DNA of 39,605 nt from Myxococcales bacterium (GTDB lineage: Bacteria > Myxococcota > Myxococcia > Myxococcales > Anaeromyxobacteraceae). How positions within the stretch are numbered: the stretch's first letter is position 1; every line of letters starts with the position of its first letter. The stretch is taken from assembly GCA_021818285.1 (NCBI GenBank), contig JAKAEO010000009.1, positions 1 to 39,605 on the forward strand. The letters are read 5' to 3'. The position numbers and the translations under genes were made by a program. Below the pieces are notes generated by a model. The model had not been told where the DNA came from and made no database searches. It saw nothing but the letters and a program-made list of their open reading frames with translations. This document shows, in pieces, positions 710-35,879 of this stretch.

Positions 710-751
710 GCGGCGTCGCCGATCCCCGAAAACCCCTGGGATGAGCGGGAG

Positions 752-1327: not shown

Positions 1328-1331
1328 CGGC

Positions 1332-1763: not shown

Positions 1764-1773
1764 CCGGCCGGGC

Positions 1774-4180: not shown

Positions 4181-4239
4181 CGGAGGGGCAATCTACCGCC
4201 GGGCTGGTGGAATCGCCAGCGGGGACCGGAGCTTGGGCG

Positions 4240-5849: not shown

Positions 5850-5867
5850 GGTGCCCCTCCCCCTCCC

Positions 5868-7121: not shown

Positions 7122-7148
7122 GGGCGGCTCCGGGCGGTTGGAGCGCGC

Positions 7149-7177
7149 TTTCTACCGCGCGCCCCGTGAGGCCGCAA
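7149..7177 (-). promoter_or_regulatory. Sigma-70-like promoter for glyA-nrdR-rib operon
   Basis: Minus strand: TTGCGG (7172-7177), 17-base spacer, TAGAAA (7149-7154; 4 of 6 consensus). It lies 28 bases upstream of the glyA ATG. No FMN-riboswitch conserved core is recognisable between rpiB and glyA or upstream of ribD or ribE. Confidence 0.45.
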
Positions 7178-7194
7178 GGCCAGGAGGCGAAGGG

Positions 7195-7638: not shown

Positions 7639-7733
7639 GCGCTCCTCCGGTGGGGCGGTCATTGTGCCACAGGACGCGCCGCGCGGGACCACCCGGCGCC
7701 CCCGCGCCGGGCGGGGGCGGGCGCGCCGCGGCT

Positions 7734-8168
7734 TCAGGCGGGCGTCGCCGCGGGCAGCACCGCGAATCCGAGCGCGGCGGCGTTCCGGCGGACGCGCTCG
7801 TCGCAGCTCACCACGACCAGGCCCCCGAGCTCGGCGTCGAGGAACCGCACCGAGGCCAGGTGGATCGCGTCCAGCGAGCGCACCGGCTCCGCCGGCCATT
7901 CCTCGCGCGCCCGCCGGTGCACCTCCTCCCCGAGCGCGACGACGTCGCAGGCGCGCTCGAAGGCCGCGAGCTGCCGCTCCGCCTCGCGGAACCCGCGGGC
8001 GTCGATGCGACCCTCTCGCCGGGCGCGGAGCAGGGCCCGCCCGGCCTCCAGGAAGGTGAGCGCCGAGGTGACGAGCCCCTCGCCCGAGAGCGCCGGCCGC
8101 AGCGCCTCGTCGCCGTCGAGCAGGACGCGCAGCAGCGCGCTCGTCTCCACGTACCGGCGATCGCTCAC
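7734..8168 (-). CDS. PIN-domain toxin, VapC family
   Basis: 144 residues, PIN-domain size. The family are Mg-dependent RNases acting on tRNA or rRNA. The expected acidic positions are E42-like (TFLEAGRALL), D in RSLDAIHLASV, and D in VVSCDERVRRNAAALGF. The first position, normally Asp in 'DTSAL', is Glu (YVETSALLRVLL, E8). The GTG start at 8168 overlaps the antitoxin stop as GTGA (8165-8168), which is typical translational coupling in type II toxin-antitoxin pairs. The longer frame upstream overlaps the antitoxin gene and is rejected. Activity is not proven; Glu at the first acidic site could lower but not necessarily abolish it. Confidence 0.85.
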   Translation of the reverse strand: MSDRRYVETSALLRVLLDGDEALRPALSGEGLVTSALTFLEAGRALLRARREGRIDARGFREAERQLAAFERACDVVALGEEVHRRAREEWPAEPVRSLDAIHLASVRFLDAELGGLVVVSCDERVRRNAAALGFAVLPAATPA

Positions 8169-8461
8169 TCGGCGCGCTCCGCGTCGAGCAGCTCCTGCGA
8201 GGTCCCGCGCGCGAGGCGGATGCGCGGGGCGGCGGCCCAGTCGACGGCGCCCGGGGCCGCGGCGGGCCGGAGGAGCCCGCGCTCGACCAGCCGGTGGAAG
8301 CCGGGTCCGCCCGGCAGGGTCGCGGTCCCGGCGGCGCCCGGCGAGCGGATCTCGGCGACGACGCGGCCGCGGTCGGTGACGAGCACCACCTCGCCCCGCG
8401 CGACGTCGCGGAGGTAGCCGCTGAGGTGGGCCTTGAGGTCGCGGACGCCGGCGGTCTTCAT
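8165..8461 (-). CDS. Phd/YefM-type antitoxin of the VapC pair
   Basis: 98 residues. The N-terminal half (MKTAGVRDLKAHLSGYLRDVARGEVVLVTDRGRVVAEI) is a classic Phd/YefM DNA-binding domain; the C-terminal half, with a Pro/Ala-rich linker and DAERAE end, would wrap the toxin. The start is set at ATG 8461 because family homology begins exactly there. No Shine-Dalgarno precedes it; the putative -10 hexamer is only seven bases away, suggesting a leaderless message. Upstream extension of the frame (to 8497) crosses the operator and promoter and is rejected. The gene overlaps the toxin by four bases. Confidence 0.85.
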   Translation of the reverse strand: MKTAGVRDLKAHLSGYLRDVARGEVVLVTDRGRVVAEIRSPGAAGTATLPGGPGFHRLVERGLLRPAAAPGAVDWAAAPRIRLARGTSQELLDAERAE

Positions 8462-8468
8462 GGCCCAT

Positions 8469-8497
8469 GATGTAGTCACATGAGACCACATCGTCAA
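8469..8497 (-). promoter_or_regulatory. Toxin-antitoxin promoter with operator palindrome in the spacer
   Basis: Minus strand: TTGACG (8492-8497), exactly 17 bases, then TACATC (8469-8474). The spacer plus part of the -10 is an inverted repeat: arms ATGTGGTC and GACTACAT (8484-8491 and 8470-8477, one mismatch) around six bases. Placement between -35 and -10 is what an autorepressor site would need. The -35 overlaps the stop codon of the upstream winged-helix gene. Binding by the Phd-type antitoxin is inferred. Confidence 0.6.
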
Positions 8498-8823
8498 GAG
8501 GTCCTGGCGGGGCGCACCAGCCCGTCCACCATGCAGCGTCGGTAGGCCTCGAGGGCGCGGCGTCCCTCCGGGCTGATCCGGTAGCTCGTCACCGGCATCC
8601 GGTCGCGGAAGGCCTTCCGCACCGTCAGGTACCCGGCCGCCTCCAGCTTCGACAGGTGGGACGACAGGTTCCCGCGGGTGAGGCCGATGGCGGCCCCGAA
8701 GAACTTGAACTCCACCTCCTCGGCGGCGGCCAGGACCGTGAGGATGGCCAGTCGCGCGGGCTCGTGGACGACGCGGTCCAGTTCCAGGAGGGACTGGACG
8801 CCGGGTACCCGGGGAGCGCTCAG
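8494..8823 (-). CDS. Winged-helix transcriptional regulator (MarR/HTH_34-like)
   Basis: About 109 residues if translation starts at the CTG 8823-8821, or fewer from a later codon. The conserved body is ELDRVVHEPARLAILTVL, then FKFFGAAIGLTRGNLSSHLS (recognition helix), KLEAAGYLTVRKAF and RISPEGRRALEAYRR, a winged-helix fold common in small one-domain regulators. No ATG, GTG or TTG precedes the conserved region in frame. CTG 8823 follows GGGAGG closely and overlaps the upstream stop (CTGA), mirroring other overlaps here; the GTG at 8715 would delete the first helices. It is co-transcribed with the membrane protein gene upstream, a pairing usually seen when the regulator controls its partner (inference). 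Confidence 0.75.
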   Translation of the reverse strand: MSAPRVPGVQSLLELDRVVHEPARLAILTVLAAAEEVEFKFFGAAIGLTRGNLSSHLSKLEAAGYLTVRKAFRDRMPVTSYRISPEGRRALEAYRRCMVDGLVRPARTS

Positions 8824-9506
8824 GGAGCCTCCCGGAACTCCGCGAGCCGGCGGTCGAGCTTCATCCAGGCGTCGTGCTGCCAGCCGCCGAGGACGGCGAG
8901 GAAGAGGCCGACGCCACCCAGGAGGACCGCCGGGCCGATCGCCTCTTCCCAGTCCCCCGGGAGGATGCGGCGCGCGTCCGCGAAGACGTTCCAGACGGCG
9001 AACAGGGCGATGGGGGGGATGGTGTCGCGATAGCCGCGGGCGAGCGCCAGGGCGAGAAGCAGGGTGGCGACCGCGCTCGCCACGGCCACCGCCACCGCCA
9101 CCGTCGCGGCGTCACCCTGCGAGGCGGCGTAACTCTGGCGGTGGCGGAGGATCCGCGCCACGAACTGCATCCCGAAGCCCGCGAGCACGAGGAGCCCGAA
9201 GAGCCGGGCCACCCGCGGTCCACGCGTCCCCACCTCGCGGGCGAGAACCCGTCCACGCGCCTGGTAGCGGCGGCGCGCCAGGTGCATCACCGGGTACCAG
9301 GCGGGCGCTGCCAGGAAGGCGAGGTTGGGGCCCCAGGCCGGGGCCAGGAGACAGGCGACCGCCGCCGCCGCCAGCCACAGCCCCCACGCGACGTAGCCCA
9401 TCCCGAAGGCCGTGGTCGAGTAGCTGGCGTACTCGCGGGTCAGCACCTCCAGTTCGCGCAGCCGGGGCGCAGCGCCCCCATCCGGGACAGCGACGGATTC
9501 GCTCAT
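8820..9506 (-). CDS. Membrane protein of unknown function, paired with a winged-helix regulator
   Basis: 228 residues from ATG 9506. Not recognised to a family. About five to six hydrophobic segments are visible: GMGYVAWGLWLAAAAVACLL, NLAFLAAPAWYPVMHL, VARLFGLLVLAGFGMQFV, a long Ala/Val-rich helix pair (VAVAVAVASAVATLLLALAL), IPPIALFAVWNVFA, and AVLLGGVGLFLAVLGG. The N-terminus is short, cytoplasmic-like and acidic/basic mixed; the C-terminus contains WMKLDRRLAEFRE. Residues upstream of 9506 in the same frame are low-complexity and cross an operator-like region, so they are excluded. It probably forms a two-gene operon with the downstream regulator. Confidence 0.75.
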   Translation of the reverse strand: MSESVAVPDGGAAPRLRELEVLTREYASYSTTAFGMGYVAWGLWLAAAAVACLLAPAWGPNLAFLAAPAWYPVMHLARRRYQARGRVLAREVGTRGPRVARLFGLLVLAGFGMQFVARILRHRQSYAASQGDAATVAVAVAVASAVATLLLALALARGYRDTIPPIALFAVWNVFADARRILPGDWEEAIGPAVLLGGVGLFLAVLGGWQHDAWMKLDRRLAEFREAP

Positions 9507-9512
9507 GGTCCG

Positions 9513-9539
9513 TGTAGTTTGCACTACAGACCAGTCTGT
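9513..9539. promoter_or_regulatory. Two overlapping palindromes upstream of the membrane protein/regulator operon
   Basis: TGTAGT-TTGC-ACTACA (9513-9528) has perfect 6-base arms. It overlaps ACAGAC-CA-GTCTGT (9526-9539), also with perfect 6-base arms. The pair sits 7-33 bases upstream of the ATG at 9506, where an operator for the co-encoded winged-helix protein could act. A TGGACA -35-like hexamer lies just upstream on the minus strand, but no convincing -10 accompanies it. Function is inferred. Confidence 0.45.
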
Positions 9540-9984
9540 GTCCACTGGTTGCGCCAGGCGATCGAGGGGGCCCGCAGCCGCGGACGGTGCGGACGGCAGC
9601 GGGACGCGCCCCTCACCCATATGTGCTGTCAGTGAACGCAGTTGCCCTCTCCCCGGCCGGAGCCGGGGCGAGGGCCAACACTGCACGTGCGTCCCGATCG
9701 TCTCAGGTCGGGACCGGGGCGAGGGCCAACGAGGCGCTCACGTCGCAGGACGCCCGGGCAGAACCGGGACGCGCGTCGCCAGGTGTCCGGCCGGAACCCG
9801 GGCGAGCATCGCCGGGTCGGGTCGGCAAGATCGGGACAAGCGCACCAAGCTGGCCCTCTCCCCCGCTCCGGCGGGGGGAGAGGGTAAGCGAGTACCACGT
9901 CGCACGGTGCGCGGCCGCGGCCCCGGAATCAGGGCCACCGAGGTGACCGAGTCCCGAGGTGCGTGGCTGGAGACGGGCGCGGGT
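9540..9984. repeat. Gene-free region with REP-like hairpins and short direct repeats
   Basis: No convincing gene is present; frames here are low-complexity shadows. Seen directly: a hairpin at 9645-9674 (arms CCCTCTCCCCGG and CCGGGGCGAGGG, one mismatch, 6-base loop) and a perfect 11-base stem at 9854-9864/9874-9884 (CCCTCTCCCCC with GGGGGAGAGGG). An exact 17-base direct repeat, CCGGGGCGAGGGCCAAC, occurs at 9663-9679 and 9714-9730, 51 bases apart. Further degenerate 'GTCGGGA/GGGACGCG' pieces lie between. This could be a REP-type intergenic element or decayed repeat cluster; the second hairpin could also terminate transcripts leaving fabF. Confidence 0.6.
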
Positions 9985-11223
<1,239 letters not shown>

Positions 11224-11283
11224 GTGGCCTCCCGCGATCGACCCCGGAGGAGGGCCCCGGCCCGCGCCGGGACCCGCCGCCGC

Positions 11284-11523
11284 CTACTTCTTGTGGGTGT
11301 TGATGTAGTTGACGGCGTCGGAGACGGTCTTGATGTTCTCCGCCTCCTCGTCCGGGATCTCGACCTCGAACTCCTCCTCCATCGCCATGACCAGCTCGAC
11401 GATGTCGAGCGAGTCGGCGCCGAGGTCCTCGATGAAGCTGGAGGTGGTCTTGATCTCCGCCTCCGCCACGCCCAGCTGATCCGCGATGATGGCCTTGACC
11501 TTCGCCTCGATGTCGTTCGCCAT
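11284..11523 (-). CDS. acpP: Acyl carrier protein
   Basis: 79 residues, acidic, the usual ACP size. Serine 38 in [18 protein letters not shown] is the 4'-phosphopantetheine attachment site. It carries growing acyl chains for the FabD/H/G/F enzymes encoded around it. ATG 11523 is preceded by AGGGAGGAG, one of the strongest ribosome binding sites in the window, consistent with the high ACP demand. Located between fabG and fabF, as in many proteobacteria. Confidence 0.98.
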
Positions 11524-11571
11524 GGAACTCCTCCCTTTCTCTCGTTCGATTCGCCGGCGTGGAGCCGCCGG

Positions 11572-12324
11572 CTACATGTACATGCCGCCGTTCACCCGGA
11601 CCACCTCGCCGGTCACGTAGGAGGCCCGGTCGCTCGCCAGCCAGGCGACGCAGTCCGCCACCTCCTGGGCCGTGCCCAGCCGCCCGAGCGCGATGGACTC
11701 CAGCATCTTGCCGCGGGCCGCCTCGGGAAGGCCCGCCGTCATGTCGGTGTCGATGAAGCCCGGGGCCACCGCGTTCACCCGGACGTTGCGGCTGGCCAGC
11801 TCGCGGGCCACCGCCTTGGTGAGGCCGATGAGCCCGGCCTTGGTGGCGGCGTACGCCGCCTGGCCGGCGTTCCCCATCTCCCCCACCACGCTGGTGAGGT
11901 TGACGATGGCGCCGCCGCGCTGCTTCATCATGGGCCGGGTCGCCGCCCGGATCAGGTGGAAGGCCCCGGTGAGGTTCACGTCGAGCTGGCGCCGCCAGTC
12001 CTCGTCCTTGAGCCGCATCACCAGCTGGTCGATGGCGACGCCGGCGTTGTTGACGAGCACGTGGAGCCCGCCCAGCTCCCCGACGATCGCCTCCACCGCC
12101 GCCTGGCAGGCGGCCGGGTCGGCGATGTCGAACTTCCGGAGCACCACCCGCGCGGCGCCGGCCCGCTCGCAGAGGGACCGGGCCTCCTCCGCGGCGGCGT
12201 CGTTGCCGGCGTAGTTCACCACCACCGTGGCCTTCCCGGCCGCCAGCGTGGTGGCGATGGCCCGCCCGATGCCGCGCGAGCCGCCGGTGACCAGCGCCAC
12301 CTTCCCGCCGAAGTCGTAGCTCAC
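11572..12324 (-). CDS. fabG: 3-oxoacyl-ACP reductase
   Basis: 250 residues, short-chain dehydrogenase family. It reduces 3-oxoacyl-ACP with NADPH. The nucleotide-binding TGGSRGIGRAIA (~14-25), NNAGVAIDQLVMRLKDEDW, and the catalytic Ser/Tyr/Lys (NLTSVVGEMGN... AYAATKAG) are visible, as is PGFIDTDMT. The GTG start 12324 overlaps the fabD stop as GTGA (12321-12324); the longer frame upstream lies antisense-of-frame across fabD and is rejected. Confidence 0.97.
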   Translation of the reverse strand: MSYDFGGKVALVTGGSRGIGRAIATTLAAGKATVVVNYAGNDAAAEEARSLCERAGAARVVLRKFDIADPAACQAAVEAIVGELGGLHVLVNNAGVAIDQLVMRLKDEDWRRQLDVNLTGAFHLIRAATRPMMKQRGGAIVNLTSVVGEMGNAGQAAYAATKAGLIGLTKAVARELASRNVRVNAVAPGFIDTDMTAGLPEAARGKMLESIALGRLGTAQEVADCVAWLASDRASYVTGEVVRVNGGMYM

Positions 12325-13268
12325 GCGCCTCCCTTCAGCGCCGCCAGGGTGCTCTCCAGCGACGCCGGGTCCTCGACGTGAAGCGCCTCGATCGACCTGT
12401 CGATGCGCCGCACCAGCCCGCCCAGCACCTTGCCGGGGCCGACCTCCACCACCCGGGTCACGCCCTGGCGCGCCAGCTCCTGCACGCACTCGATCCAGCG
12501 CACCGGCGCCGTCACCTGCTCGACCAGCAGCGGGACGATGCGGGCGGCGTCGGCGTTGGCCTTCGCCTCGACGTTGGTCACCACCGGCACCCGCGGCGCC
12601 CGGAAGGCCACGGCCCGCAGCACCGCCTCCAGCCGCGGCCGGACCGGCTGCATCAGGGCGCAGTGGAAGGGAGCGGACACCGGGAGGGGCAGGACGCGCC
12701 TGGCGCCCGCCTCCTTGAGCCGCGCCCCGGCCGCCTCCACCGCCGCGGCCGCGCCGGCGATCACCGTCTGGCCCGGCTCGTTGTAGTTGGCCGGCGAGAC
12801 CACCTGCCCGGTGGCCGCCGCCGCCTCGTCGCAGACCGCCTTCACCCGCTCCGGGGCGAGCCCCAGCACCGCGCTCATCGCCCCCTGCCCGGCCGGCACC
12901 GCCTCCTGCATGAAGGTGCCGCGGGCCCGCACCGCCCGGGCGGCGTCGGCGGCGCCGAGCGCGCCGGCGCAGACCAGCGCCGAGTACTCGCCCAGGGAGT
13001 GGCCGGCCACCAGGTCGGGCGCCACGCCGGCCTCGGCCAGCACCGCCGCGGCGGCGGCCGAGACCGCCAGGATGGCCGGCTGGGTGTTGGCGGTGAGCCG
13101 GAGCGCCTCCTCGGGCCCCTCGAAGCAGAGCGTCGAGAGCTTCTCCCCCAGCGCCGCGTCCACGGCGTCGAAGACGGCGCGCGCCGCCGGGAAGGCCTCG
13201 GCCAGCGCCCGGCCCATGCCGGCGGCCTGCGATCCCTGCCCGGGGAAGACGAATGCCAGCTTGCCCAT
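12321..13268 (-). CDS. fabD: Malonyl-CoA:ACP transacylase
   Basis: 315 residues. It transfers malonyl from CoA to ACP. Seen: FVFPGQGSQAAGMGRAL at the N-terminus, the nucleophile Ser91 in AGHSLGEYSALV, the His in LPVSAPFHCALM, and the C-terminal VVEVGPGKVLGGLVRR. ATG 13268 precedes the conserved KLAFVFPGQGSQ. It is 11 bases downstream of fabH and overlaps fabG by four bases. Confidence 0.97.
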   Translation of the reverse strand: MGKLAFVFPGQGSQAAGMGRALAEAFPAARAVFDAVDAALGEKLSTLCFEGPEEALRLTANTQPAILAVSAAAAAVLAEAGVAPDLVAGHSLGEYSALVCAGALGAADAARAVRARGTFMQEAVPAGQGAMSAVLGLAPERVKAVCDEAAAATGQVVSPANYNEPGQTVIAGAAAAVEAAGARLKEAGARRVLPLPVSAPFHCALMQPVRPRLEAVLRAVAFRAPRVPVVTNVEAKANADAARIVPLLVEQVTAPVRWIECVQELARQGVTRVVEVGPGKVLGGLVRRIDRSIEALHVEDPASLESTLAALKGGA

Positions 13269-13279
13269 GGTCCGGTCGC

Positions 13280-14260
13280 CTACCAGCGGATGATGCCCGC
13301 ACCCCAGGCCATGCCGCCACCGATGGCCATGACCAGGATGGAGCAGCCGGGCGTGAACCAGCCGGCCCGGGCCGCCTCGTCGAGGGTGGTCGGCACCGAG
13401 GCCGCCGAGGTGTTGCCGTACTTCTCCAGGTTCATCCAGCACTTGGAGGCGGGGATGCCCAGCCGCTCCAGGGTGGAGTCGAGGATGCGCTTGTTGGCCT
13501 GGTGGGCGATGACGAAGTCCACGTCGCCCGGGGTCATGCCGTTGGCGCCGAGCGCCTCGCGGCAGCTCTCCTCCAGCGCCCGCACCGCCACCTTGTAGAC
13601 CTCGCGGCCGTTCATCTTCACGTAGTGGCTCTTCTCGTCCACCACCTTCTGCGAGATGGGGTTGCGCGAGCCGCCGCCGGGCATGTGGAGGATGGGCCAG
13701 AGCGCGCCGTCGGTGTGCAGGTGCAGCGACTGGACGCCGCGCCGGTCGTCGTCGGTGGGCCGGAGCACCATCGCCCCGGCGCCGTCGCCGAAGAGGATGC
13801 AGGTGTTGCGGTCGGTCCAGTCGGTGATGCGGGTCAGGGTGTCGGCGCCGAGCACCAGGGCGTTCTTCACCCGGCCGCTGCGGATGAACTGGTCGGCGAT
13901 GGAGAGGGAGTAGAGCGAGCCGGCGCAGGCCGCCGAGACGTCGAAGGCGAAGGCCTTCTTGTTCCCGAGCCGGCCCTGGAGCACCGCCGCCGCCGCCGGC
14001 CAGGGCATGTCGGCCGTGACCGTCCCCATGGCGATCATCTCCACGTCCTTGGGGTCGAGCCCGGCCTGGTCCAGGGCCTTGCGCGCGGCGTGCAGCGCCA
14101 GGTCGCTGGTGGCCTCCTCGGGCGCGGCGATGTGGCGCTCGCGGATGCCGGTCCGCTCGACGATCCACTGGTCGGTGGTGTCGACCAGCTTCTCCAGGTC
14201 GGCGTTGGTCACGACCTTGGCGGGGCTGTACGAGCCGGTGCCGACGATGAGCGAGCGCAT
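13280..14260 (-). CDS. fabH: 3-oxoacyl-ACP synthase III
   Basis: 326 residues. It starts fatty acid synthesis by condensing an acyl-CoA primer with malonyl-ACP. The catalytic triad is visible: Cys112 in DVSAACAGSLYSL, His in IAHQANKRILD, and Asn in YGNTSAASVP. ATG 14260 is preceded by AGGAACGGAG. The primer choice (acetyl or branched acyl-CoA, common in myxobacteria) cannot be read from sequence alone. Confidence 0.97.
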   Translation of the reverse strand: MRSLIVGTGSYSPAKVVTNADLEKLVDTTDQWIVERTGIRERHIAAPEEATSDLALHAARKALDQAGLDPKDVEMIAMGTVTADMPWPAAAAVLQGRLGNKKAFAFDVSAACAGSLYSLSIADQFIRSGRVKNALVLGADTLTRITDWTDRNTCILFGDGAGAMVLRPTDDDRRGVQSLHLHTDGALWPILHMPGGGSRNPISQKVVDEKSHYVKMNGREVYKVAVRALEESCREALGANGMTPGDVDFVIAHQANKRILDSTLERLGIPASKCWMNLEKYGNTSAASVPTTLDEAARAGWFTPGCSILVMAIGGGMAWGAGIIRW

Positions 14261-14271
14261 CTCCGTTCCTC

Positions 14272-15354
14272 TCAGGACTCGCGGGGCGCCGCGCGGCGCG
14301 CCGGGCCGTGGGCGCCGGCGGCGGCCGCGCCCGAGGCCAGCAGCTCCTCGGACCGGGCCACCGCCTCGGCGATCTCGGCGGTGAAGTGGGACTCGGCCGC
14401 GGCGCGCACCCTGCGGATGGCGTTCTCCATGGCCAGGGCGTCGGAGCGGCCGTGGCTGATGAAGCCCACCCCGTCGACGCCCACCAGCGGCGCGCCCCCC
14501 ACCTCGCGCCAGTCGATCTTCGCCTTCAGCCCCTGGAGCGCGCTCCTGGCGAGCAGCCCGCCGATCTTGGAGGCGGTGGTGCTCCGCAGGGCCTGCTTCA
14601 CGTACTCGCTGACCACCCGGGCCGTCCCCTCCATGGTCTTCAGGGCCACGTTCCCGGTGAAGCCGTCGGTGACCACCACGTCGAGCTCGCCGGCGAGCAG
14701 GTCGCGCCCCTCGCAGTAGCCGCGGAAGTCGATGGGGGCGAGGCGCAGCGCCGCCGCCGCCGCCCGGGTGAGGTCGGTGCCCTTGGCGTCCTCCTCGCCG
14801 TTCGACAGCACCGCCACCCGGGGCCGGGCCACGCCCAGGACGCGGCGCGAGAAGAGCTCGCCCATCAGGCCGAACTGCACCAGGTGGACCGGCTTGCAGT
14901 CCACGTTGGCGCCGCCGTCGAGCATGATGGTCTGGCCCTTCAGCGTCGGCAGCACGGCGATGATGGCCGGGCGCTCCACCGTGCCGGTGCGCCCGAGCAC
15001 GAACATGGCGCCGGCCATCACCGCGCCGCTGTTGCCGGCCGAGACCATGCCGCAGGCCTCGCCCCGCTTCACCAGCTCGAAGCAGACGCGGATGGAGTTG
15101 TCCTTCTTGCGGCGCATCGCCTGGCCGGGGTGGTCGTCCATCGCCACCACCTCGGAGGCGCCGTGCACGGTGACGGGCAGCCCCTGGCCGGCGCGGTGGC
15201 GCGCCAGCTCCTCGCGGACCCGTGCCTCCGGGCCGACCAGCACCACCGGCAGCCCGTGCCGCGCCGCGTTGATGGCACCCTGGACGATCGCCCCGGGGGC
15301 GTGGTCGCCCCCCATCGCGTCGACGGCGACCGGTGCCAGGCGGCGCGAGGGCAA
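14272..15354 (-). CDS. plsX: Phosphate acyltransferase PlsX
   Basis: 360 residues. It makes acyl-phosphate from acyl-ACP for the PlsY step of phospholipid synthesis. Family features: VAVDAMGGDHAPGAIVQGA at the N-terminus, MVSAGNSGAVMAGA, MLDGGANVDCKP, VVTDGFTGNVALKTMEG, and GVGFISHGRSDA. The start appears to be TTG (15354), three bases after the rpmF stop; no in-frame ATG or GTG lies before the conserved start. The C-terminus carries an Ala/Arg-rich tail. Confidence 0.95.
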   Translation of the reverse strand: MPSRRLAPVAVDAMGGDHAPGAIVQGAINAARHGLPVVLVGPEARVREELARHRAGQGLPVTVHGASEVVAMDDHPGQAMRRKKDNSIRVCFELVKRGEACGMVSAGNSGAVMAGAMFVLGRTGTVERPAIIAVLPTLKGQTIMLDGGANVDCKPVHLVQFGLMGELFSRRVLGVARPRVAVLSNGEEDAKGTDLTRAAAAALRLAPIDFRGYCEGRDLLAGELDVVVTDGFTGNVALKTMEGTARVVSEYVKQALRSTTASKIGGLLARSALQGLKAKIDWREVGGAPLVGVDGVGFISHGRSDALAMENAIRRVRAAAESHFTAEIAEAVARSEELLASGAAAAGAHGPARRAAPRES

Positions 15355-15357
15355 GGC

Positions 15358-15537
15358 TTACTCGCCGGCCGTGACCTGCTGGCCCTTGTACGTCCCGCAG
15401 GAGGGGCAGACCCGGTGGGACAGCACCGGCTCCTTGCACTTCGGGCAGAGGGTGACGTTGGCCGGCTTGATCTTGAAGTTGGCGGCGCGGCGGCGGTTGC
15501 GACGCATCGAGCTGGTGCGCTTCTTCGGGACGCCCAC
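15358..15537 (-). CDS. rpmF: 50S ribosomal protein L32
   Basis: 59 residues with a GTG start (15537), preceded by AAGGAG at good spacing. The sequence VGVPKKRTSSMRRNRRRA is the standard bL32 N-terminus, and CPKC...CPSC is the zinc-ribbon form of L32. The frame continues upstream as an antisense shadow of yceD, which is excluded. The yceD-rpmF-plsX order is widely conserved. Confidence 0.97.
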   Translation of the reverse strand: MGVPKKRTSSMRRNRRRAANFKIKPANVTLCPKCKEPVLSHRVCPSCGTYKGQQVTAGE

Positions 15538-15559
15538 GGTGTGCTCCTTGTTCGCGGTG

Positions 15560-16141
15560 CTACTTGGTCCTGGACCGAAACTTCTCGAGCCCCGCCCAGC
15601 GCGGGTCGGGGACGTGCCGGTCGCAGCCGCACTCCCGCTCGTTCCGGTTCTGCCCGCAGACCGGGCAGAGCCCCTTGCAGTCCTCGCGGCAGAGCGGGTA
15701 GCCCGGCAGGGCGAGCAGGATCTGCTCGCGGACCACCGGATCGAGGTCGATCTCGTGCCCCTGGTAGTGCTCCTCGCCGACGTCCTCGTCGCCGAAGCTC
15801 CCGGCGACGCGCGCCTTGCCGCGGTCGTGGGGCTCGCCGGGCTCCTCACCCTCCGGCCGCTGGCGCTTCTCGGCCGGGACGAAGGTGAGGGAGAAGTCCA
15901 CGGGCAGCGGGACGGCGACCGGCGCGAGGCAGCGGCCGCAGGGGGCGGTCAGCTCGGCGCGGGTCCGGGCGCGCAGCAGGACCCGCTCCCCGAACCGCTC
16001 CAGGTGGGCGGCGATCCGGGTGGTCGACCCCGCCCGGTAGCCGGCGGGGTCGCCGGCGAGGATCTCGTCCAGGCGGGCGGGGAGAAAGTCCCAGGAGCGG
16101 TCGAGGCCGCCCTCTTTGATTTCATCAATATTCACGCGCAT
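15560..16141 (-). CDS. yceD: YceD/DUF177 family protein (23S rRNA accumulation protein)
   Basis: 193 residues. DUF177 proteins are encoded next to rpmF across bacteria, and the E. coli member affects 23S rRNA accumulation. Seen: cysteine pair CGRC (~88-91), the C-terminal ILLALPGYPLCREDCKGLCPVCGQNRNERECGC segment with conserved cysteines, and a central acidic insert. ATG 16141 is 27-30 bases from the predicted transcription start and lacks a strong Shine-Dalgarno. It leads the fatty acid operon. Confidence 0.9.
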   Translation of the reverse strand: MRVNIDEIKEGGLDRSWDFLPARLDEILAGDPAGYRAGSTTRIAAHLERFGERVLLRARTRAELTAPCGRCLAPVAVPLPVDFSLTFVPAEKRQRPEGEEPGEPHDRGKARVAGSFGDEDVGEEHYQGHEIDLDPVVREQILLALPGYPLCREDCKGLCPVCGQNRNERECGCDRHVPDPRWAGLEKFRSRTK

Positions 16142-29170: not shown

Positions 29171-31246
29171 TCAGCCCGCGGCCCGGCCCGGGTCGGGCCC
29201 CGGGCCCGGGGGCGGCGGCCCGGGCGGCGCGCCCCGCCGCTCCTGGAGCACGGCCACCAGCCGCCCGCCCAGCCGCGCGTAGAGCCAGGAGGCGAAGAGC
29301 AGCGCCGCGCCGACCGAGAAGAGCACCCCGACCTGGAGCGGCCGCTGCCACAGGTCCCAGACCGCGACCCGCGCGATGATCACGCCGAAGAGCCCGAGCC
29401 CCAGCGCCCGCAGCAGCCCGCTGCGCCGCCGGAAGCCGGCCCACACCAGCAGCGTCGCCAGGCCGGCCCAGGCCAGCGTCGAGTAGGCGCCGGGCAGCAC
29501 GTGCATGGCGGCGGCGGCGAACAGCCCCACCGCCACCGCCTGCAGGGCGTTGCCCCAGCGCGGCGAGCGGGAGAGCAGCATCCCGCCCAGGGCCACGTGG
29601 GCGGCGCCCGAGGTCGCGGCCAGCGCGCCCCGCACCAGGGGCTCGCTGGGGGCGAGGAACAGCACCAGCGCCCCGTAGACCACGCCGGTGCCCGAGGCGG
29701 TGACGATGTGCGGCCAGTCGGGCGTCTCGCGCTGGGACCGGATGCGGTAGGCGAGGCCGCCGAGGTGGACCAGCACCCAGCAGCCGCCCAGCGCCAGGAG
29801 CACGTGGTCCCCCTGGTCCCGCAGCGGCAGCGCCGCCCCCAGCAGGCCGAAGAAGGCGAGCAGCCCGGTCCCGGCGAGCAGCAGCGAGTAGCGCCGCTTC
29901 ATGGCCAGCCAGGCGTAGGCGAAGGACCAGGCGACGGTCACCAGGCCGAAGGCGCGCCAGTGGAAGGGCGCGAGCAGCTCGCCGGCCACCACCAGGAAGA
30001 GCGCGCCGGCGACTCCCGAGAGGATGAGCGACCCGTGCAGCCGGTGGCGCGCCAGCCCCCAGGCGTAGGCCGTCCCCCACGCCGCCAGGGGGAGGAAGGT
30101 GGCGAGCGGCGGGCTCCGGGAGTGGTCGGCCCCCAGCAGCAGGAAGAAGGACAGGGCCAGCGGCGGGAGCAGCGTCCAGGGCTCGTCGGCCGGGAGCAGC
30201 CGGACGGCGAGGAGCGCCAGCGCGGCCGCGGAGGCGGTGACCAGCGGCGGCTGGTCCCAGACCAGGGCGGCGAAGGGCAGGTGGGCGAGGAGCAGGCCGG
30301 CCACCAGCAGCTTCCCCGGGGCGACGGCGGCGCGCCCCAGGCTGCGGGCGCGGGCCGGCGCGGCGATCCAGAGGGCCGCGAAGGCGGCGGCGAAGAGCAG
30401 CGGGACGGCGCGCGCCGCGAGCAGGGCGTGCGGGCCGCCGGGGCGGGCGTCGAAGGAGCGCCAGGACCAGTGGGCCAGCGCGGCGCACCCGCCCAGGGGC
30501 GCCAGCCAGGCGGCGACCGGGAAGGCCCGCCACACCGCCACCGCCAGCGGCGCCGCGGTGACCGCGAGCAGCCAGGCGAAGAGGGCCGGCGCGGGCGCCC
30601 CGCGCCAGGCGAGCGCCGGCGCCACCAGCGCCCCGGCGAGCGGGATGACCAGCGGGACCTCGGTGGCGTGGCGGACCGCCAGCGCCCCGCCCACGGCCAG
30701 CACCGCCGCGGAGCCGGCCAGCGCCGCCCAGGGCGGCGCCAGGTGGTAGAGCGCGGCGCTGGCGACGGCGGCGAAGGCGAGCACCGCGGTGCCGAGCCCC
30801 AGCACCACCTGGTTGAAGAGCGGGCGGGCCCGGCGCCGGCTCACCTCGGCGAAGGCCAGGGCGGCCACGCCGGCGGCGCCCGCCACCGCCAGCCGGCCCG
30901 CTCCGGCGCCGCCGCCGGTCGGGCCGTAGAAGAGGAAGACCGCGGCGCCGACCACCAGGAGGCCGGCGCCGATCCGCGCCAGCCACACCAGGGCGATGCG
31001 CTCCTCGAGGCTGGTCTCCGCCGCGGCCGGCTCGCCCTCCGCCGGGCCGGGGATCGCGACCGCCTCCCCGGTGGGAACCTGCCTGGGGCGGTCGAGCCCG
31101 AGATGCTTCTCGATCGCCGCGAGCCGGCGCTGGACCGCGCGGAGGGTCTCGCGCGCCTCGGCGGCCCGGACCCAGGCGCCGACCGACAGGAGGACGAGCG
31201 CGAAGATGACGACGAGGAGCAGCAGGCCGGCGGCGACGGCGAGCAT
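29171..31246 (-). CDS. DUF2339 large membrane protein
   Basis: 691 residues. A first membrane helix (LAVAAGLLLLVVIFALVLLSV) is followed by a coiled-coil-like helical segment (AEARETLRAVQRRLAAIEKHLGL) and a Pro/Ala linker. Then come about 20 hydrophobic helices to the end, including ARIGAGLLVVGAAVFLFYG, the conserved entry into the membrane domain of DUF2339 proteins. The cytoplasmic tail is Pro-rich. Family function is unknown. ATG 31246; the extension past the C-terminal RAAG is absent. It is divergent from the next plus-strand genes with 123 bases between. Confidence 0.8.
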   Translation of the reverse strand: MLAVAAGLLLLVVIFALVLLSVGAWVRAAEARETLRAVQRRLAAIEKHLGLDRPRQVPTGEAVAIPGPAEGEPAAAETSLEERIALVWLARIGAGLLVVGAAVFLFYGPTGGGAGAGRLAVAGAAGVAALAFAEVSRRRARPLFNQVVLGLGTAVLAFAAVASAALYHLAPPWAALAGSAAVLAVGGALAVRHATEVPLVIPLAGALVAPALAWRGAPAPALFAWLLAVTAAPLAVAVWRAFPVAAWLAPLGGCAALAHWSWRSFDARPGGPHALLAARAVPLLFAAAFAALWIAAPARARSLGRAAVAPGKLLVAGLLLAHLPFAALVWDQPPLVTASAAALALLAVRLLPADEPWTLLPPLALSFFLLLGADHSRSPPLATFLPLAAWGTAYAWGLARHRLHGSLILSGVAGALFLVVAGELLAPFHWRAFGLVTVAWSFAYAWLAMKRRYSLLLAGTGLLAFFGLLGAALPLRDQGDHVLLALGGCWVLVHLGGLAYRIRSQRETPDWPHIVTASGTGVVYGALVLFLAPSEPLVRGALAATSGAAHVALGGMLLSRSPRWGNALQAVAVGLFAAAAMHVLPGAYSTLAWAGLATLLVWAGFRRRSGLLRALGLGLFGVIIARVAVWDLWQRPLQVGVLFSVGAALLFASWLYARLGGRLVAVLQERRGAPPGPPPPGPGPDPGRAAG

Positions 31247-31369
31247 TACTTCATCAGTACCAAATGGATGTGGCGTTTGAACGCACCCTTTCTCCCTGAC
31301 TCGCTGGACCTAGGCGCAAGAGGGAGGTCCAGGGGAGTCCCGGCCTCCGAGCCGTGGTAGGTTCTCGCC

Positions 31370-31564
31370 ATGCCCGTGAGCAAGAAGCGAAAGAACAGGG
31401 AAGGGAAGCCGGTCCACCGGAGCCAGGCCACGCCCGAGGCGGCGAGCGAGGAGCACGCCGCGCCCGAGGCCAAGCAGACCCCGCTGCAGCAGCGGGTGAT
31501 GGGCCGGGCCAGCAACCCCTTCGTCGCCCAGATGCCCCGGCGCGCCGCCCAGCGCGGCCGCTGA
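31370..31564 (+). CDS. Small basic hypothetical protein
   Basis: 64 residues, strongly basic: MPVSKKRKNREGKPVHRSQA, an acidic middle, then QQRVMGRASNPFVAQMPRRA. No signal peptide, membrane helix or known domain. The start has TAGGTT six bases upstream and no Shine-Dalgarno, so it too may be leaderless. The lysine/arginine-rich ends suggest nucleic-acid or ribosome contact (inference). It lies 14 bases before the GIY-YIG gene on the same strand. Confidence 0.6.
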   Translation: MPVSKKRKNREGKPVHRSQATPEAASEEHAAPEAKQTPLQQRVMGRASNPFVAQMPRRAAQRGR

Positions 31565-31578
31565 CCGCCGGCGGAGCG

Positions 31579-31875
31579 GTGCCCCGCCCCGGCTGGCGCG
31601 TCTACCTGCTGGCCTGCCGGGACGGCTCCCTCTACGCCGGCTCCACGAACGACCTGGCGCGCCGCCTGGCGCAGCACGCCGCCGGGAAGGGGGCCCGCTA
31701 CACGCGCTCCCGCCTCCCGGTGGCGCTGGCCTGGGACGAGCCGGCCCGGGACCGCCCGGCCGCGCTCCGCCGCGAGGCCGCCCTGAAGCGCCTCACCCGG
31801 GCCGAGAAGCTCGCGCTGGTGGCCCGCCGCGGGCGGCCGGGCCCGCGCCGGCCGGGCCGCCCGGGGCGGACCTAG
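31579..31875 (+). CDS. GIY-YIG domain protein (UPF0213/YhbQ-like)
   Basis: 98 residues from GTG 31579. Single small GIY-YIG domain: WRVYLLACRDGSLYAGSTNDLARRLAQH (the LYAGST stretch replaces the usual YxGIT), then GKGARYTRSRLPVAL and ALRREAALKRLTRAEKLALV, the UPF0213 signature. The C-terminus is Arg/Gly/Pro-rich. The family has a nuclease fold; cellular substrates are not established for most members. The upstream part of the same frame overlaps the small basic gene and is excluded. It converges with the NrfD gene, overlapping its stop by four bases. Confidence 0.85.
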   Translation: MPRPGWRVYLLACRDGSLYAGSTNDLARRLAQHAAGKGARYTRSRLPVALAWDEPARDRPAALRREAALKRLTRAEKLALVARRGRPGPRRPGRPGRT

Positions 31876-33059
31876 TGGCCCGTGCCGCCGTCGGCCTCCG
31901 CCTCGCCGGGCCGGTGGATGGGCAGGACCCGGTCGAAGATCCACATCAGGACGAACGGGGTGATGAAGAGCACCACCGCCATCACCACGCCCTCGCGGCC
32001 GAACAGCTCCGGCGTGTAGGGCGAGCGCAGGCCGCGCAGCGACTTCGAGAGCAGCTGCCCGCCGATGACCACGTTCCAGCGCATCGAGAAGACCTGCAGG
32101 AGCAGCAGCAGCGCCGAGGCCACCGTCAGGGTGTTGCGGACCCGCTCGTGCAGGTAGGCGTTCATCATCACCACGATGCCGAGCAGGATGACGGGGATGA
32201 GGCCGCCGATGATCATCTGCACGGTGATGAAGCTGAACTCCAGCCGGGTGGTGAGGAGCTCGGAGATGATGTGCCAGGGCTCCGACTTCTCGTAGGCCAG
32301 CATGATGATCTCGAGCAGCTCGAGGGTGATGGTGAGGATCAGGAAGAGCCAGAGCCAGCGCGCCATCGCCGAGACGGTGGCCTGCTGGGCCGGCACCCGG
32401 CGCGCCTTGGAGACCACCTGGTAGACGATGGTGAGCAGGGCGATGCCCGACACCGCCGCCGAGAGCAGGAAGATCACCGGCATCAGCGGCGAGGACCACC
32501 AGGGGTTGGCCTTGATGGCGCCGAAGATGAAGCCGACGTAGCCGTGGAGCATGCAGGCCATGGGCAGGCCGATGCCGGCGAGCACGGTGATGACCTTGTG
32601 GTCCACCGCCTTGGCCTCGTCGGAGCTGTCGTAGGTCCAGAGCGCCATCGCCGCGTAGAGCTTCCGCTTCAGCCCGCGGGAGCGGCGCGCCGCCTCGATG
32701 ATGTCCTGGCGCCAGACGAACCAGACCTCGAAGGCCACGATGACCAGGTAGGTGGTGTAGAGCAGGCCGAACCCGGCCATGGCCGAGGTGAAGTGCGGGG
32801 TGATCATCACCTTGTAGCCGCGCTCGGGGTGGCCGAGGTGGAGCTGCAGCGGCATCCCGGCGATGAGCAGGAAGCAGAAGCTGGCCGCCAGCGACAGCTT
32901 GGCGATGGGCTTGAACTCCTGCCGGCCGAACACGTGGTAGAGCGAGGTGACGATGAAGGAGCCGGCCACGAAGCCCGTGATGTAGGGGTACATCACGATC
33001 ATCAGGCTCCACAGCACGTGGATGTCGTTGGGGAAGGCGTAGCCGGTGATCTCGGGCAT
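31872..33059 (-). CDS. nrfD: NrfD/PsrC-type quinone-interacting membrane subunit
   Basis: 395 residues with about nine to ten membrane helices (WSLMIVMYPYITGFVAGSFIV, LAASFCFLLIAGMPLQL, FIFGAIKANPWWSSPLMPVIFLLSAAV and others). This is the NrfD/PsrC fold, which binds menaquinol or menaquinone and exchanges electrons with a partner ferredoxin subunit. ATG 33059 shares its A with the ferredoxin stop (TAATG). It is the last gene of the repeat protein-cytochrome-ferredoxin-NrfD operon. No catalytic reductase (NrfA, PsrA, DmsA type) is encoded in the window. Extension of this frame upstream is a shadow of the ferredoxin gene. Confidence 0.92.
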   Translation of the reverse strand: MPEITGYAFPNDIHVLWSLMIVMYPYITGFVAGSFIVTSLYHVFGRQEFKPIAKLSLAASFCFLLIAGMPLQLHLGHPERGYKVMITPHFTSAMAGFGLLYTTYLVIVAFEVWFVWRQDIIEAARRSRGLKRKLYAAMALWTYDSSDEAKAVDHKVITVLAGIGLPMACMLHGYVGFIFGAIKANPWWSSPLMPVIFLLSAAVSGIALLTIVYQVVSKARRVPAQQATVSAMARWLWLFLILTITLELLEIIMLAYEKSEPWHIISELLTTRLEFSFITVQMIIGGLIPVILLGIVVMMNAYLHERVRNTLTVASALLLLLQVFSMRWNVVIGGQLLSKSLRGLRSPYTPELFGREGVVMAVVLFITPFVLMWIFDRVLPIHRPGEAEADGGTGH

Positions 33060-33898
33060 TACCGGACCTCCTTGTCGAGGTGCAGGTAGAAGCAGTTGGG
33101 CTCGGTGAGGAGGTGGGGCTGCAGGATGCCCACGCGCCGGGTCTCGATGATCTTCCGGACCGGGTCGTCCTCCTTCTTCATGTTCCCGAACATGCGGGTG
33201 CCGGTGGGGCAGACCTCGACGCAGGCCGGGCGCAGCCCCTTGGTGATGCGGTGGTAGCACCAGGTGCACTTCTCGGCGGTGTGGGTCACCGGGCTGAGGA
33301 AGCGGCTGCCGTACGGGCAGGCCTGGACGCAGTAGCCGCAGCCGATGCAGGTCTCGGCGTCCACCATCACCACGCCGTCGCGGGTCCGGTAGGAGGCGCC
33401 CACCGGGCAGACCTGGACGCACGGGGTGGCGGTGCAGTGCATGCACATCTTGGGGACGAAGAAGGACTTGGTGGCGTGGAAGTCCACCTGCGACGGGGGG
33501 AAGCCGTTGATGCCGCCGTCGGGCGAGTCCACGTGGGAGCCGCCGGCCCCGACCACGTAGCGCTCCACCCAGGTGCGGAAGAAGCCGTCCGGGACGTCGT
33601 TCTCGGCCCGGCAGGCGCGCACGCAGGAGCCGCAGCCGATGCACTTCTCGGTGTCGATGACGTAGGCGTAGCGGTACTCGTTCCAGTCGTAGCCGGGGAT
33701 GTCGGGCCGGGACGGGCCCGGCGACTCGCCGGCGCCGGAGGCGCGGGCCTCGGGGGCGCCGGCGAGGAGGGCCACCGCGCCGCCGGCCAGCAGCACCGCC
33801 TGGCCGAGGAACTCGCGCCGGGCGCCGTCGCAGCCGCCCGCCTCGCCGCACCCCGGGATCTCGGGAGAGGGCGCCGGGCTCTGGTTCTGTTCGCTCAT
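33059..33898 (-). CDS. nrfC: Tat-exported four-cluster ferredoxin subunit (NrfC/PsrB-like)
   Basis: 279 residues. A twin-arginine signal is visible (ARREFLGQAVLLAGGAVALL, residues ~26-46). The mature part carries four cysteine groups of the DmsB/NrfC/PsrB type: CIGCGSCVRAC, CMHCTATPCVQVCP, CIGCGYCVQACPYG, and CTWCYHRITKGLRPACVEVCP, each for one [4Fe-4S] cluster. An insertion with HVDSPDGGINGFPPSQ precedes the second group. It would ferry electrons between NrfD and the tetrahaem cytochrome on the periplasmic side. The N-terminus before the Tat motif has an extra CGEAGGC pair, which may be fortuitous. It is 14 bases downstream of the cytochrome gene. Confidence 0.93.
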   Translation of the reverse strand: MSEQNQSPAPSPEIPGCGEAGGCDGARREFLGQAVLLAGGAVALLAGAPEARASGAGESPGPSRPDIPGYDWNEYRYAYVIDTEKCIGCGSCVRACRAENDVPDGFFRTWVERYVVGAGGSHVDSPDGGINGFPPSQVDFHATKSFFVPKMCMHCTATPCVQVCPVGASYRTRDGVVMVDAETCIGCGYCVQACPYGSRFLSPVTHTAEKCTWCYHRITKGLRPACVEVCPTGTRMFGNMKKEDDPVRKIIETRRVGILQPHLLTEPNCFYLHLDKEVR

Positions 33899-33912: not shown

Positions 33913-34377
33913 TCAGGGCTTGGGCGAGTGGGGGTTGTGGCACTGCAGGCAGACGTCGCCTTCGACCGCGACCGGGACGTGCTGGTCGAGCACCACCTGC
34001 GGGAACTTCTCGGGCCGGCCGGCGATCTTCCGGTGGCAGCGGGCGCAGAGCGTGTAGCTCCGGTCCAGCGGCATCTTGGCCTTCACCACGCCGTCCACCA
34101 CGTGGACCGAGAGCGGCGCGTGGCACACCTCGCAGCTCACCGTCTTGTGGCTGCCCGCCGCCCGCTCGGTCGCCTGCTTGGCGTGGCAGGGGGCGCAGGA
34201 CTCGGGGCCGCCGTGGCGCGGCGCGCGGATCCGCGCCTGCTCGGCGACGTTGTCGGCGCGGTAGGGGCCGTACAGCCCGTAGGACTTCGGCACCAGGAAG
34301 CCGCGACCGAGGATGAAGACGGTGAGGGCCACCACCAGCACCAGCAGGGCGCGGAAGACGTGTCGTGCGTGCTCCAT
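33913..34377 (-). CDS. Membrane-anchored tetrahaem cytochrome c
   Basis: 154 residues. An N-terminal helix (ALLVLVVALTVFILGRGFLV) acts as anchor or uncleaved signal; four CxxCH sites follow: CAPCH, CEVCH, CARCH and CLQCH, with H-K/H-x spacing typical of NrfB-like/class III multihaem proteins. It would pass electrons to or from the ferredoxin/NrfD pair. CGGAGG precedes ATG 34377. It is 12 bases downstream of the repeat-protein stop and 14 bases upstream of the ferredoxin gene, so the four genes form one operon. The haem count (4 rather than the 5 of E. coli NrfB) argues for a related but not identical complex. Confidence 0.9.
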   Translation of the reverse strand: MEHARHVFRALLVLVVALTVFILGRGFLVPKSYGLYGPYRADNVAEQARIRAPRHGGPESCAPCHAKQATERAAGSHKTVSCEVCHAPLSVHVVDGVVKAKMPLDRSYTLCARCHRKIAGRPEKFPQVVLDQHVPVAVEGDVCLQCHNPHSPKP

Positions 34378-34389
34378 CCAGCCTCCGGG

Positions 34390-34824
34390 TCAGGGGTCGA
34401 GCTTCTCGGGTTTGAAGAGCCAGGCGATCCAGTGCGTCCGGCGCTCCGGCGCCGGTCCCGGCGGATCCTCGGGGAGCGGCTCGGGCGCGAAGAGCCACGC
34501 GCCCCAGGAGTTCCTCCGGCGCGCGGCACGCGGCGCCGGCGGATCCTCGGGGAGCGGCTCGGGCGCGAAGAGCCACGCGCCCCAGGAGCTCCTCCGGCGC
34601 GCGGCACGAGGCGCCGGCGGATCCTCGGGGAGCGGCTCGGGCGCGAGGAGGAACCGCAGGATCCGGCCGGTGCCGCGCGGCGGCGCGACCGGGTCCTCGG
34701 GCAGGGGCTCGGGTGCGACCAGCGCGCGCAGGAGGTTCCAGCGGACCCGTGGCGCGCCGGCGTCCGGCGGCGGGGGGGGCAGCGTCTCGACCTCGAGCAC
34801 CTTGCGCAGAAACGCAAGAAGCAT
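34390..34824 (-). CDS. Tandem-repeat protein heading the NrfD-type redox operon
   Basis: 144 residues made almost wholly of a ~24-27-residue repeat: a short aromatic/hydrophobic helix, then PEPLPEDP, then an Ala/Arg/Pro linker. Copies: LLAFLRKVLEVETLPPPPP (degenerate), LLRALVAPEPLPEDP, ILRFLLAPEPLPEDP, SSWGAWLFAPEPLPEDP, NSWGAWLFAPEPLPEDP, and a final THWIAWLFKPEKLDP. No haem, iron-sulfur or known domain, and no cysteine. ATG 34824 has no clear Shine-Dalgarno. The frame is open without stops, and its repeats keep the reading frame, favouring a true gene. I do not recognise a family. A membrane-surface or scaffolding role in the downstream complex is only inference. Confidence 0.6.
   Translation of the reverse strand: MLLAFLRKVLEVETLPPPPPDAGAPRVRWNLLRALVAPEPLPEDPVAPPRGTGRILRFLLAPEPLPEDPPAPRAARRRSSWGAWLFAPEPLPEDPPAPRAARRRNSWGAWLFAPEPLPEDPPGPAPERRTHWIAWLFKPEKLDP
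34463..34650. repeat. Tandem 78-bp DNA repeat inside the repeat-protein gene
   Basis: Two adjacent 78-base units, 34463-34540 and 34541-34618, differ at two positions only; a third unit starting at 34619 is alike for its first ~30 bases and then diverges. The length is 26 codons, preserving frame. The near identity points to recent duplication or ongoing homogenisation. Confidence 0.9.
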
Positions 34825-34931: not shown

Positions 34932-35879
34932 TCAGAGCTGGCGGCCGCGGAAGGCCAGCGAGCCGAGCATCGCCGCGATCTCGGAGTCGCGCGGCGAGAG
35001 CTGGATCGCCCGTCGCAGCAAGGCGATCGCGGTGTGGACGTCGCCGGATCCCACCGCGGCCCGCGCGCGGTCGAGGCACTCCTGGGCGGCGGGCGGGCGC
35101 GGCGCGTCCCCTGGTCCGGGCCCCGCCACCGAGGCAGCCGCAGCTGCCCCCTGCGGGGGGACGGCGTGCGGCGCCGCCGCGGGCGTCCGCGCCGGGGTCG
35201 GCTCGGCCCCGGCCGGCGTCGGCGCCACGGCAGGCTCGGCCGCGCGCTGCTCGGCGGCGAGGCTCGCCAGCACCGGCTTCCACTGCGCGGCCGGGACGGA
35301 GCTGCCCATCGCCAGGGTCAGCACCCGCTTCTCGAACAGCGCGAAGAGGGCCCGCACGACCGCCGGCGCGCCGGTGCTCCGGCCGTCGAGCAGGTCGCGC
35401 GGCGTCCTCCCGCTGTCCATGAGGCGCAGCAGCGCGGCCTCCTCGTCGGTGAGGTCGACGATGAAGCGCGGCGGCGGGAGGAGGTAGAGGGGCGCGTCGA
35501 GGTAGAGCCGTTCCGGGGCCCGCAGGACGCGCGAGGCGAGGCCCGGCTGCGAGGCCAGCCAGCGCCGCAGCCAGGCGTCGGGATCGACGGTCCCGGGCTG
35601 CCTCCCGTCGAAGGCCACGCCGGCCCGGAGGCGGGCCTCGGCGCTGGTCCAGGCGACGTGGCCCAGCACCGAGAGCGGCCCGGCGTCGCGGGCGTCGCCG
35701 ATGGCGAGGCGCAGCACCGCCCCCTGCACCAGCGGCCGCGGCGTCACCAGCAGGCAACCCCCGGCGCCCACGTCCTCGGTGACCGCCTGGAAGAGCTCGC
35801 CGCGGGCCGACACACCGACCGCCAGCCGCGCGGGGACGCGCGGGAACCGGCGCGGGTTCTCGATGAAGTCGGCGGCCAC
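34932..35879 (-). CDS. PilZ domain protein with C-terminal TPR-like region
   Basis: 315 residues, GTG start. Residues ~8-100 look like a PilZ domain: RRFPRVPARLAVGV supplies the RxxxR c-di-GMP contact, and DVGAGGCLLV stands in for D/NxSxxG (the S is replaced by A/G). A middle helical region (VDLTDEEAALLRLMDSGRTPRDLLDGRS) recalls the winged-helix DUF4388 domain. A long Ala/Pro linker leads to a TPR-like end (CLDRARAAVGSGDVHTAIALLRRAIQLSPRDSEIAAMLG). Such proteins in myxobacteria often respond to c-di-GMP. It would be a candidate receptor for the c-di-GMP made by the GGDEF protein, though the two are not adjacent. TAGACT lies 10 bases upstream of the start. Confidence 0.75.
   Translation of the reverse strand: MAADFIENPRRFPRVPARLAVGVSARGELFQAVTEDVGAGGCLLVTPRPLVQGAVLRLAIGDARDAGPLSVLGHVAWTSAEARLRAGVAFDGRQPGTVDPDAWLRRWLASQPGLASRVLRAPERLYLDAPLYLLPPPRFIVDLTDEEAALLRLMDSGRTPRDLLDGRSTGAPAVVRALFALFEKRVLTLAMGSSVPAAQWKPVLASLAAEQRAAEPAVAPTPAGAEPTPARTPAAAPHAVPPQGAAAAASVAGPGPGDAPRPPAAQECLDRARAAVGSGDVHTAIALLRRAIQLSPRDSEIAAMLGSLAFRGRQL

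Follow-up and report, generated by a model that had tools for sequence, protein, structure and literature searches.

A variable tandem-repeat protein encoded with one clade of NrfD-type membrane complexes

The repeat gene and its neighbors

The window, a 39,605-nucleotide stretch of DNA from a member of the Anaeromyxobacteraceae, carries on its minus strand four genes in the order REP, CYT, FeS and NrfD (Table 1). The first of these encodes a 144-amino acid tandem-repeat protein of six units, as the initial annotation had described. A typical unit of ca. 25 amino acids consists of basic residues and a short hydrophobic/aromatic stretch, followed by a PEPLPEDP-like sequence and a Pro/Arg/Ala linker. 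The first and last units are shorter or diverged, and the last is of the type that forms the conserved C terminus of REP across the Anaeromyxobacteraceae. Tandem Repeats Finder recovers a period of 78 in the underlying DNA (2.5 copies, 97% matches, score 365), and 76 of 78 bases are identical in the best adjacent pair of 78-bp units, which reproduces the near identity of two units reported previously. The 12-base gap to the tetrahaem cytochrome gene was likewise correct, with REP ending at 34390 and the ATG of CYT lying at 34377.

We found no signal peptide, transmembrane (TM) helix or cofactor motif in REP, the last in agreement with the earlier statement that it lacks any known cofactor site. 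The protein also belongs to no named family, as had been suspected: searches of Pfam, NCBIfam, PHROGs and the PDB returned no significant match to REP (the best Pfam match, to DUF6321, has an E value of 0.12 and 13.4 bits vs. a cut-off of 28.5), nine distant homologs gave no family match either, and literature searches found no description of it.

The remaining three genes encode the parts of a CbcSTU-type module, namely a membrane-anchored tetrahaem cytochrome, for which the structure model shows a TM helix followed by a haem domain, a 4Fe-4S ferredoxin-like subunit, which matches Fer4_11 (E 3e-26) plus further domain models, and an NrfD/PsrC-type membrane subunit. The same parts list is known from CbcSTU (Cbc4) of Geobacter, a menaquinol:ferricytochrome c oxidoreductase described with three genes, which encode a tetrahaem c-type cytochrome, a 4Fe-4S ferredoxin-like protein and an integral membrane quinone subunit (PMC11434368, PMC10989804); the likeness is one of gene content. 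The NrfD-type redox operon proposed in the initial annotation is supported, with the correction that the module resembles the CbcSTU type by gene content. Unlike CbcSTU as described, the loci reported here have a fourth, repeat-encoding gene. Quinol modules of the NrfBCD/SirCD/DsrJOP type also share an NrfD-family subunit (PF03916), a periplasmic 4Fe-4S partner and a multihaem cytochrome, but against the curated NrfC, NrfD, DsrO, DsrP and TtrB models the trio falls well short of the equivalog cut-offs. No repeat protein is known from these systems.

A PilZ-TPR gene lies on the same strand about 107 nt upstream of REP. Because this neighbor was seen only in the same genus (G002), it is probably outside the operon unit, of which REP is likely the first gene. 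Downstream of NrfD is a gene for a DUF2339 polytopic membrane protein (PF10101, E 2e-15); similar proteins also adjoin NrfD in the Hydrogenedentota loci L185 (E 3e-11) and L216 (E 2e-6, below the cut-off), and none was found beside NrfD in the Anaeromyxobacter relatives inspected. A gene encoding a GIY-YIG nuclease-domain protein converges on NrfD.

Table 1. Features of the REP locus and flanking genes in the window
Feature	Coordinates	Strand	Basis
REP, 144-aa tandem-repeat protein, six units	34390..34824	-	translated frame, family alignments, structure model
REP unit 1, N-terminal helix unit, MLLAFLRKVLEVETLPPPPPDAGAPR	34747..34824	-	aligned with homologs
REP unit 2, VRWNLLRALVAPEPLPEDPVAPPRG	34672..34746	-	unit profile
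REP unit 3, TGRILRFLLAPEPLPEDPPAPRAA	34600..34671	-	unit profile
REP unit 4, RRRSSWGAWLFAPEPLPEDPPAPRAA, DNA near-identical to unit 5	34522..34599	-	Tandem Repeats Finder, pairwise match
REP unit 5, RRRNSWGAWLFAPEPLPEDPPGPAPE	34444..34521	-	Tandem Repeats Finder, pairwise match
REP unit 6, C-terminal, RRTHWIAWLFKPEKLDP	34393..34443	-	aligned with homologs
CYT, membrane-anchored tetrahaem c-type cytochrome, CbcS-like by architecture	33913..34377	-	four CxxCH, N-terminal hydrophobic helix
FeS, NrfC/TtrB/DsrO-like 4Fe-4S protein, RR Tat-type signal, CbcT-like by architecture	33059..33898	-	profile matches
NrfD-family quinone-interacting membrane subunit, CbcU-like by architecture	31872..33059	-	PF03916, E 9e-38
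PilZ-TPR protein	34932..35879	-	
GIY-YIG nuclease-domain protein	31354..31875	+	
DUF2339 polytopic membrane protein	29171..31246	-	

Coding status, spread and linkage of REP

The window copy of REP has 78% GC and overlaps several further open frames, so its coding status rests on the homologs. Across 22 of 22 homologous loci checked, the REP frame is the sole frame without stops; at one of them, with 49% GC, it runs for 178 open codons while the other frames contain 3-12 stops. These stop counts rule out antisense and other open frames at the locus. In relatives, the homologous frames anticipated by the initial annotation carry neither stops nor frameshifts, with one low-coverage contig bearing a fusion (see below). 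The dN/dS ratio of REP is below 1 in all 12 close pairs, mostly at 0.4-0.5, whereas most pairs of CYT give values of about 0.15-0.3. In three genomes (G004, G016 and G019), the stop codon of REP and the start codon of CYT overlap as TGATG, and in four genomes of another genus the two codons are directly adjacent. There was no match to Rfam at the locus, and promoter and terminator scans were likewise empty. Judged from these comparisons, REP is a real protein.

The number of units varies among the homologs, a check that the initial annotation had proposed. The window copy has six, G002 five, most Anaeromyxobacter four, the PSR-1 group three and G008 two, and the remaining homologs have 3 to 8, with eight in L120. 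The core consensus common to the homologs, FxRWLLxxExLP, persists throughout this range of 2-8 units, and the Glu/Asp and Leu of ExL are strongly conserved. When ten related genomes were searched with a unit profile, only REP loci scored well and no other protein had a comparable score; the best non-REP match, in G005, had an E value of 0.0075. A Planctomycetota REP (L214, G325, positions 2-139), whose locus is cut by the contig start, has near-identical tandem units (SREELATDEPE), and this is an independent recent unit duplication.

REP homologs were found in 18 of 60 genomes searched (own included), all from the one family that contains Anaeromyxobacter. Within that family, 18 of 24 genomes encode REP, directly 5' of CYT-FeS-NrfD at every one of the 18 loci, with flanking genes that differ among them; the six genomes without REP are the same six that are without CYT. 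A full-length profile run over 195 Myxococcota genomes matched only in this family, and REP never occurred without CYT in that set. A divergent four-unit REP lies upstream of CYT in G163, from another Myxococcota family. A search of plasmids returned no REP relative.

Using the CYT alignment as an anchor, we scanned 84,980 species genomes, which returned 65 loci. A repeat frame lies upstream at every assessable locus with a close CYT/NrfD; L112, where the sequence is cut 39 bases upstream, was left out of this assessment. The REP loci come from Phycisphaerae (L116, L119 and L120), Planctomycetota (L123), Hydrogenedentota (L122 and L124), Nitrospinae (L125) and a Deltaproteobacteria MAG placed in Myxococcota (L121). 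The converse scan, with repeat units alone, yielded five new loci (G325, G506, G638, G640 and G681), each of them in a CYT-FeS-NrfD operon. At a sixth (G755, L226/L223), at least three REP units directly follow genes for a trihaem cytochrome, an FeS protein and a molybdopterin oxidoreductase, and the contig ends inside REP. The unit profile is specific: it hit just 4 of 392 genomes in Planctomycetota, 3 of 68 in Hydrogenedentota and, among genomes taken from the phylum to which a Desulfopila genome belongs, 3 of 395. Two matches were rejected. One look-alike motif in an MBL-fold-like protein (G833, from the phylum of the Desulfopila genome, E 3e-4) was judged a chance hit because it is a single copy within another protein, and a single unit match in a 41-codon frame of a Nitrospinae genome, opposite a glycosyltransferase-like gene, was set aside.

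REP homologs thus precede CYT-FeS-NrfD in Planctomycetota, Hydrogenedentota, Nitrospinota and a genome sampled as Desulfobacterota. By sequence comparison, REP is present in at least five phyla and is not confined to Myxococcota. The link to cytochrome, ferredoxin and NrfD genes raised in the initial annotation is supported. The association of REP with the CYT-FeS-NrfD complex is well supported.

Several of the distant loci have unusual arrangements. REP and CYT are about 426 bp apart in L123/L186 (G200), the only such gap seen between neighboring copies of the two genes. In L213 (G506, 101-12842), REP heads a large operon that encodes a nonahaem cytochrome, Rieske-like and cytochrome b frames, CYT, FeS and NrfD, with the bc-like module between REP and CYT, as well as 11- and 13-haem cytochromes, a sensor kinase and a sigma54-type regulator. 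In the Phycisphaerae locus L190 (G197, 1671-15637), cytochromes with 9, 9, 19 and 11 haems surround an eight-unit REP-CYT-FeS-NrfD set.

In a tree of 63 NrfD proteins, all 29 REP-bearing operons fall on one side of a single branch (support 98/94), and 33 operons without REP lie outside it. The REP label changes once on this tree, vs. about 21 times when labels are shuffled. Thus, REP is tied to one lineage of the complex, a pattern that within this sample corresponds to a single gain or a single loss. Just ten positions of NrfD are invariant in the REP-bearing clade and differ outside it, some of them inside TM helices. Three clade-specific residues, I120, R128 and Y143, sit in an Arg/Lys-rich loop between TM3 and TM4, which by the positive-inside rule would be cytoplasmic (for NrfD-family topology, see PMC8076601). 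The cytochromes of REP-bearing operons share a tail motif close to MEH[ATS][KR]H[VIL]xR ahead of the anchor helix (34350-34377 in the window), which differs in outgroup cytochromes. Taken together, the data give good support to REP as a new and widespread repeat protein that varies rapidly and is genetically part of one clade of NrfD-type complexes.

Location and possible function of REP

AlphaFold2 models REP as a largely unstructured chain interrupted by six short helices (pLDDT 62, pTM 0.15). In G008 (L037/L110), a two-unit REP is fused in frame to the N terminus of CYT, immediately before the membrane anchor, and in the model of this fusion the two units form helices of 15-16 residues that precede the membrane-anchoring one. 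This fusion comes from a single contig of low coverage (about 2.2x according to the record title) and could be an assembly error, so it is suggestive evidence for location. Together with the absence of a signal peptide, it points to the cytoplasmic face of the membrane.

The initial annotation had suggested a helix lying on the membrane surface. An amphipathic helix of this kind is not supported: the helical hydrophobic moment of the units is not above that of shuffled versions, and family members differ in net charge from -9 to +13. REP contains 2.5 interfacially hydrophobic 9-mers per 100 residues, vs. 0.8 in three soluble comparator proteins from the window, and given this ca. threefold enrichment it may contact the membrane. 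The conserved core, which combines a short hydrophobic/aromatic cluster with ExLP, resembles a docking motif more than a charged amphipathic surface helix.

The position of REP directly beside the genes of one branch of membrane electron-transfer complexes, seen in at least five phyla, makes it a probable fourth component of this branch that has been overlooked. Perhaps it tethers multiple copies of the complex to each other at the inner face of the membrane. The most likely single mechanism, to which we give somewhat less than an even chance, is that REP acts as a multivalent cytoplasmic scaffold that clusters CbcSTU-like complexes. REP would then be an accessory subunit of one clade of CbcSTU-like menaquinol:cytochrome c oxidoreductases, in which 2-8 short docking motifs (FxRWLLxxExLP), each a short helix followed by a Pro-rich linker, are strung along the chain. 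Each unit would dock on the cytoplasmic side of a complex and/or into the adjacent membrane interface, with the charged TM3-TM4 loop of NrfD or the short N-terminal tail of CYT as candidate sites, and one chain could thereby hold several complexes together. The gene linkage, the single NrfD clade, the translational coupling, the fusion, the varying unit number and the clade-specific NrfD residues speak for this reading; the small number of those residues, some of them in TM helices, speaks against it. We infer the cytoplasmic side, the docking and the clustering.

REP has the features of a scaffold in that a short motif is repeated in a disordered chain with variable copy number. In mechanism only, it recalls the Rubisco linkers EPYC1 and CsoS2, mostly disordered chains in which short motifs recur between linkers; in contrast to these, the partner of REP would be a membrane complex, and no sequence relation is claimed. 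Linkers of pyrenoid Rubisco show little conservation between species (PMC11570498; also PMC10614612). Greater constraint on the motif cores of REP than on its linkers was expected, but was not found in close pairs, where dN/dS is 0.54 in the cores and 0.44 in the linkers. These pairs therefore reveal no strong fine-scale constraint on a fixed docking sequence, probably because L, F, I and V can replace one another freely in the cores.

The main rival to clustering is that REP is an assembly or quality-control factor, whose motifs would hold nascent CYT, FeS or NrfD in the cytoplasm until export, haem insertion or assembly, after which REP would leave. Complexes with Tat-exported subunits often have dedicated chaperones, and FeS carries a Tat signal; moreover, REP is small, disordered and, by its lack of a signal, cytoplasmic, and as the first gene it is translationally coupled to CYT in several genomes. 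However, known Tat chaperones are globular rather than arrays of short motifs, the fused REP of G008 would stay with the cytochrome, and outgroup complexes with the same subunits are without REP. On balance, we consider an assembly role unlikely, though deserving of serious attention.

Lower still in probability is that REP sits at the membrane surface and binds lipid through its hydrophobic/aromatic clusters, without the complex as a direct partner. The density of interfacial 9-mers and clusters rich in Trp, Leu and Phe, such as SWGAWLF, would fit lipid binding, but the unremarkable hydrophobic moment and the wide range of net charge argue against it, as does the strict linkage to one NrfD clade, and the conserved Glu/Asp and Leu of ExL would be unexpected for unspecific lipid contact. 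We regard as similarly improbable, by a hair more so, that REP links the complex to some other cytoplasmic partner, such as a dehydrogenase, a regulator or a cytoskeletal element, instead of to further copies of itself: a string of motifs can bind any partner, and the larger Planctomycetota operons do encode extra electron-transfer parts, but only REP, CYT, FeS and NrfD recur in the neighborhoods inspected, which have no gene for a cytoplasmic partner in common. Finally, a reading of the frame as an artefact of high GC content or as a leader/RNA element, which the open frames of the window copy might favor, is strongly disfavored and has almost no probability left, given the uniquely open frame in all homologs checked (including the locus at 49% GC), the dN/dS values, the lack of an Rfam match and the occurrence of homologs in at least five phyla.

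Implications for respiratory complexes

REP is a nameless gene that forms a constant fourth member of one clade of quinol oxidoreductases in several phyla, some represented here by metagenomes alone, and it can serve as an annotation marker for a recognizable four-gene version of the complex. With more reserve than for clustering as such, we suggest that it could represent a previously unrecognized class of respiratory scaffold, one that would array NrfD-type quinol oxidoreductases of at least five phyla along the cytoplasmic face and whose valency would change as units of about 75-78 bp are gained or lost. If REP is a multivalent scaffold, the forms with 2 to 8 units that occur in nature would allow a direct test of valency, and the protein would be a dedicated organizer for bacterial respiratory complexes.
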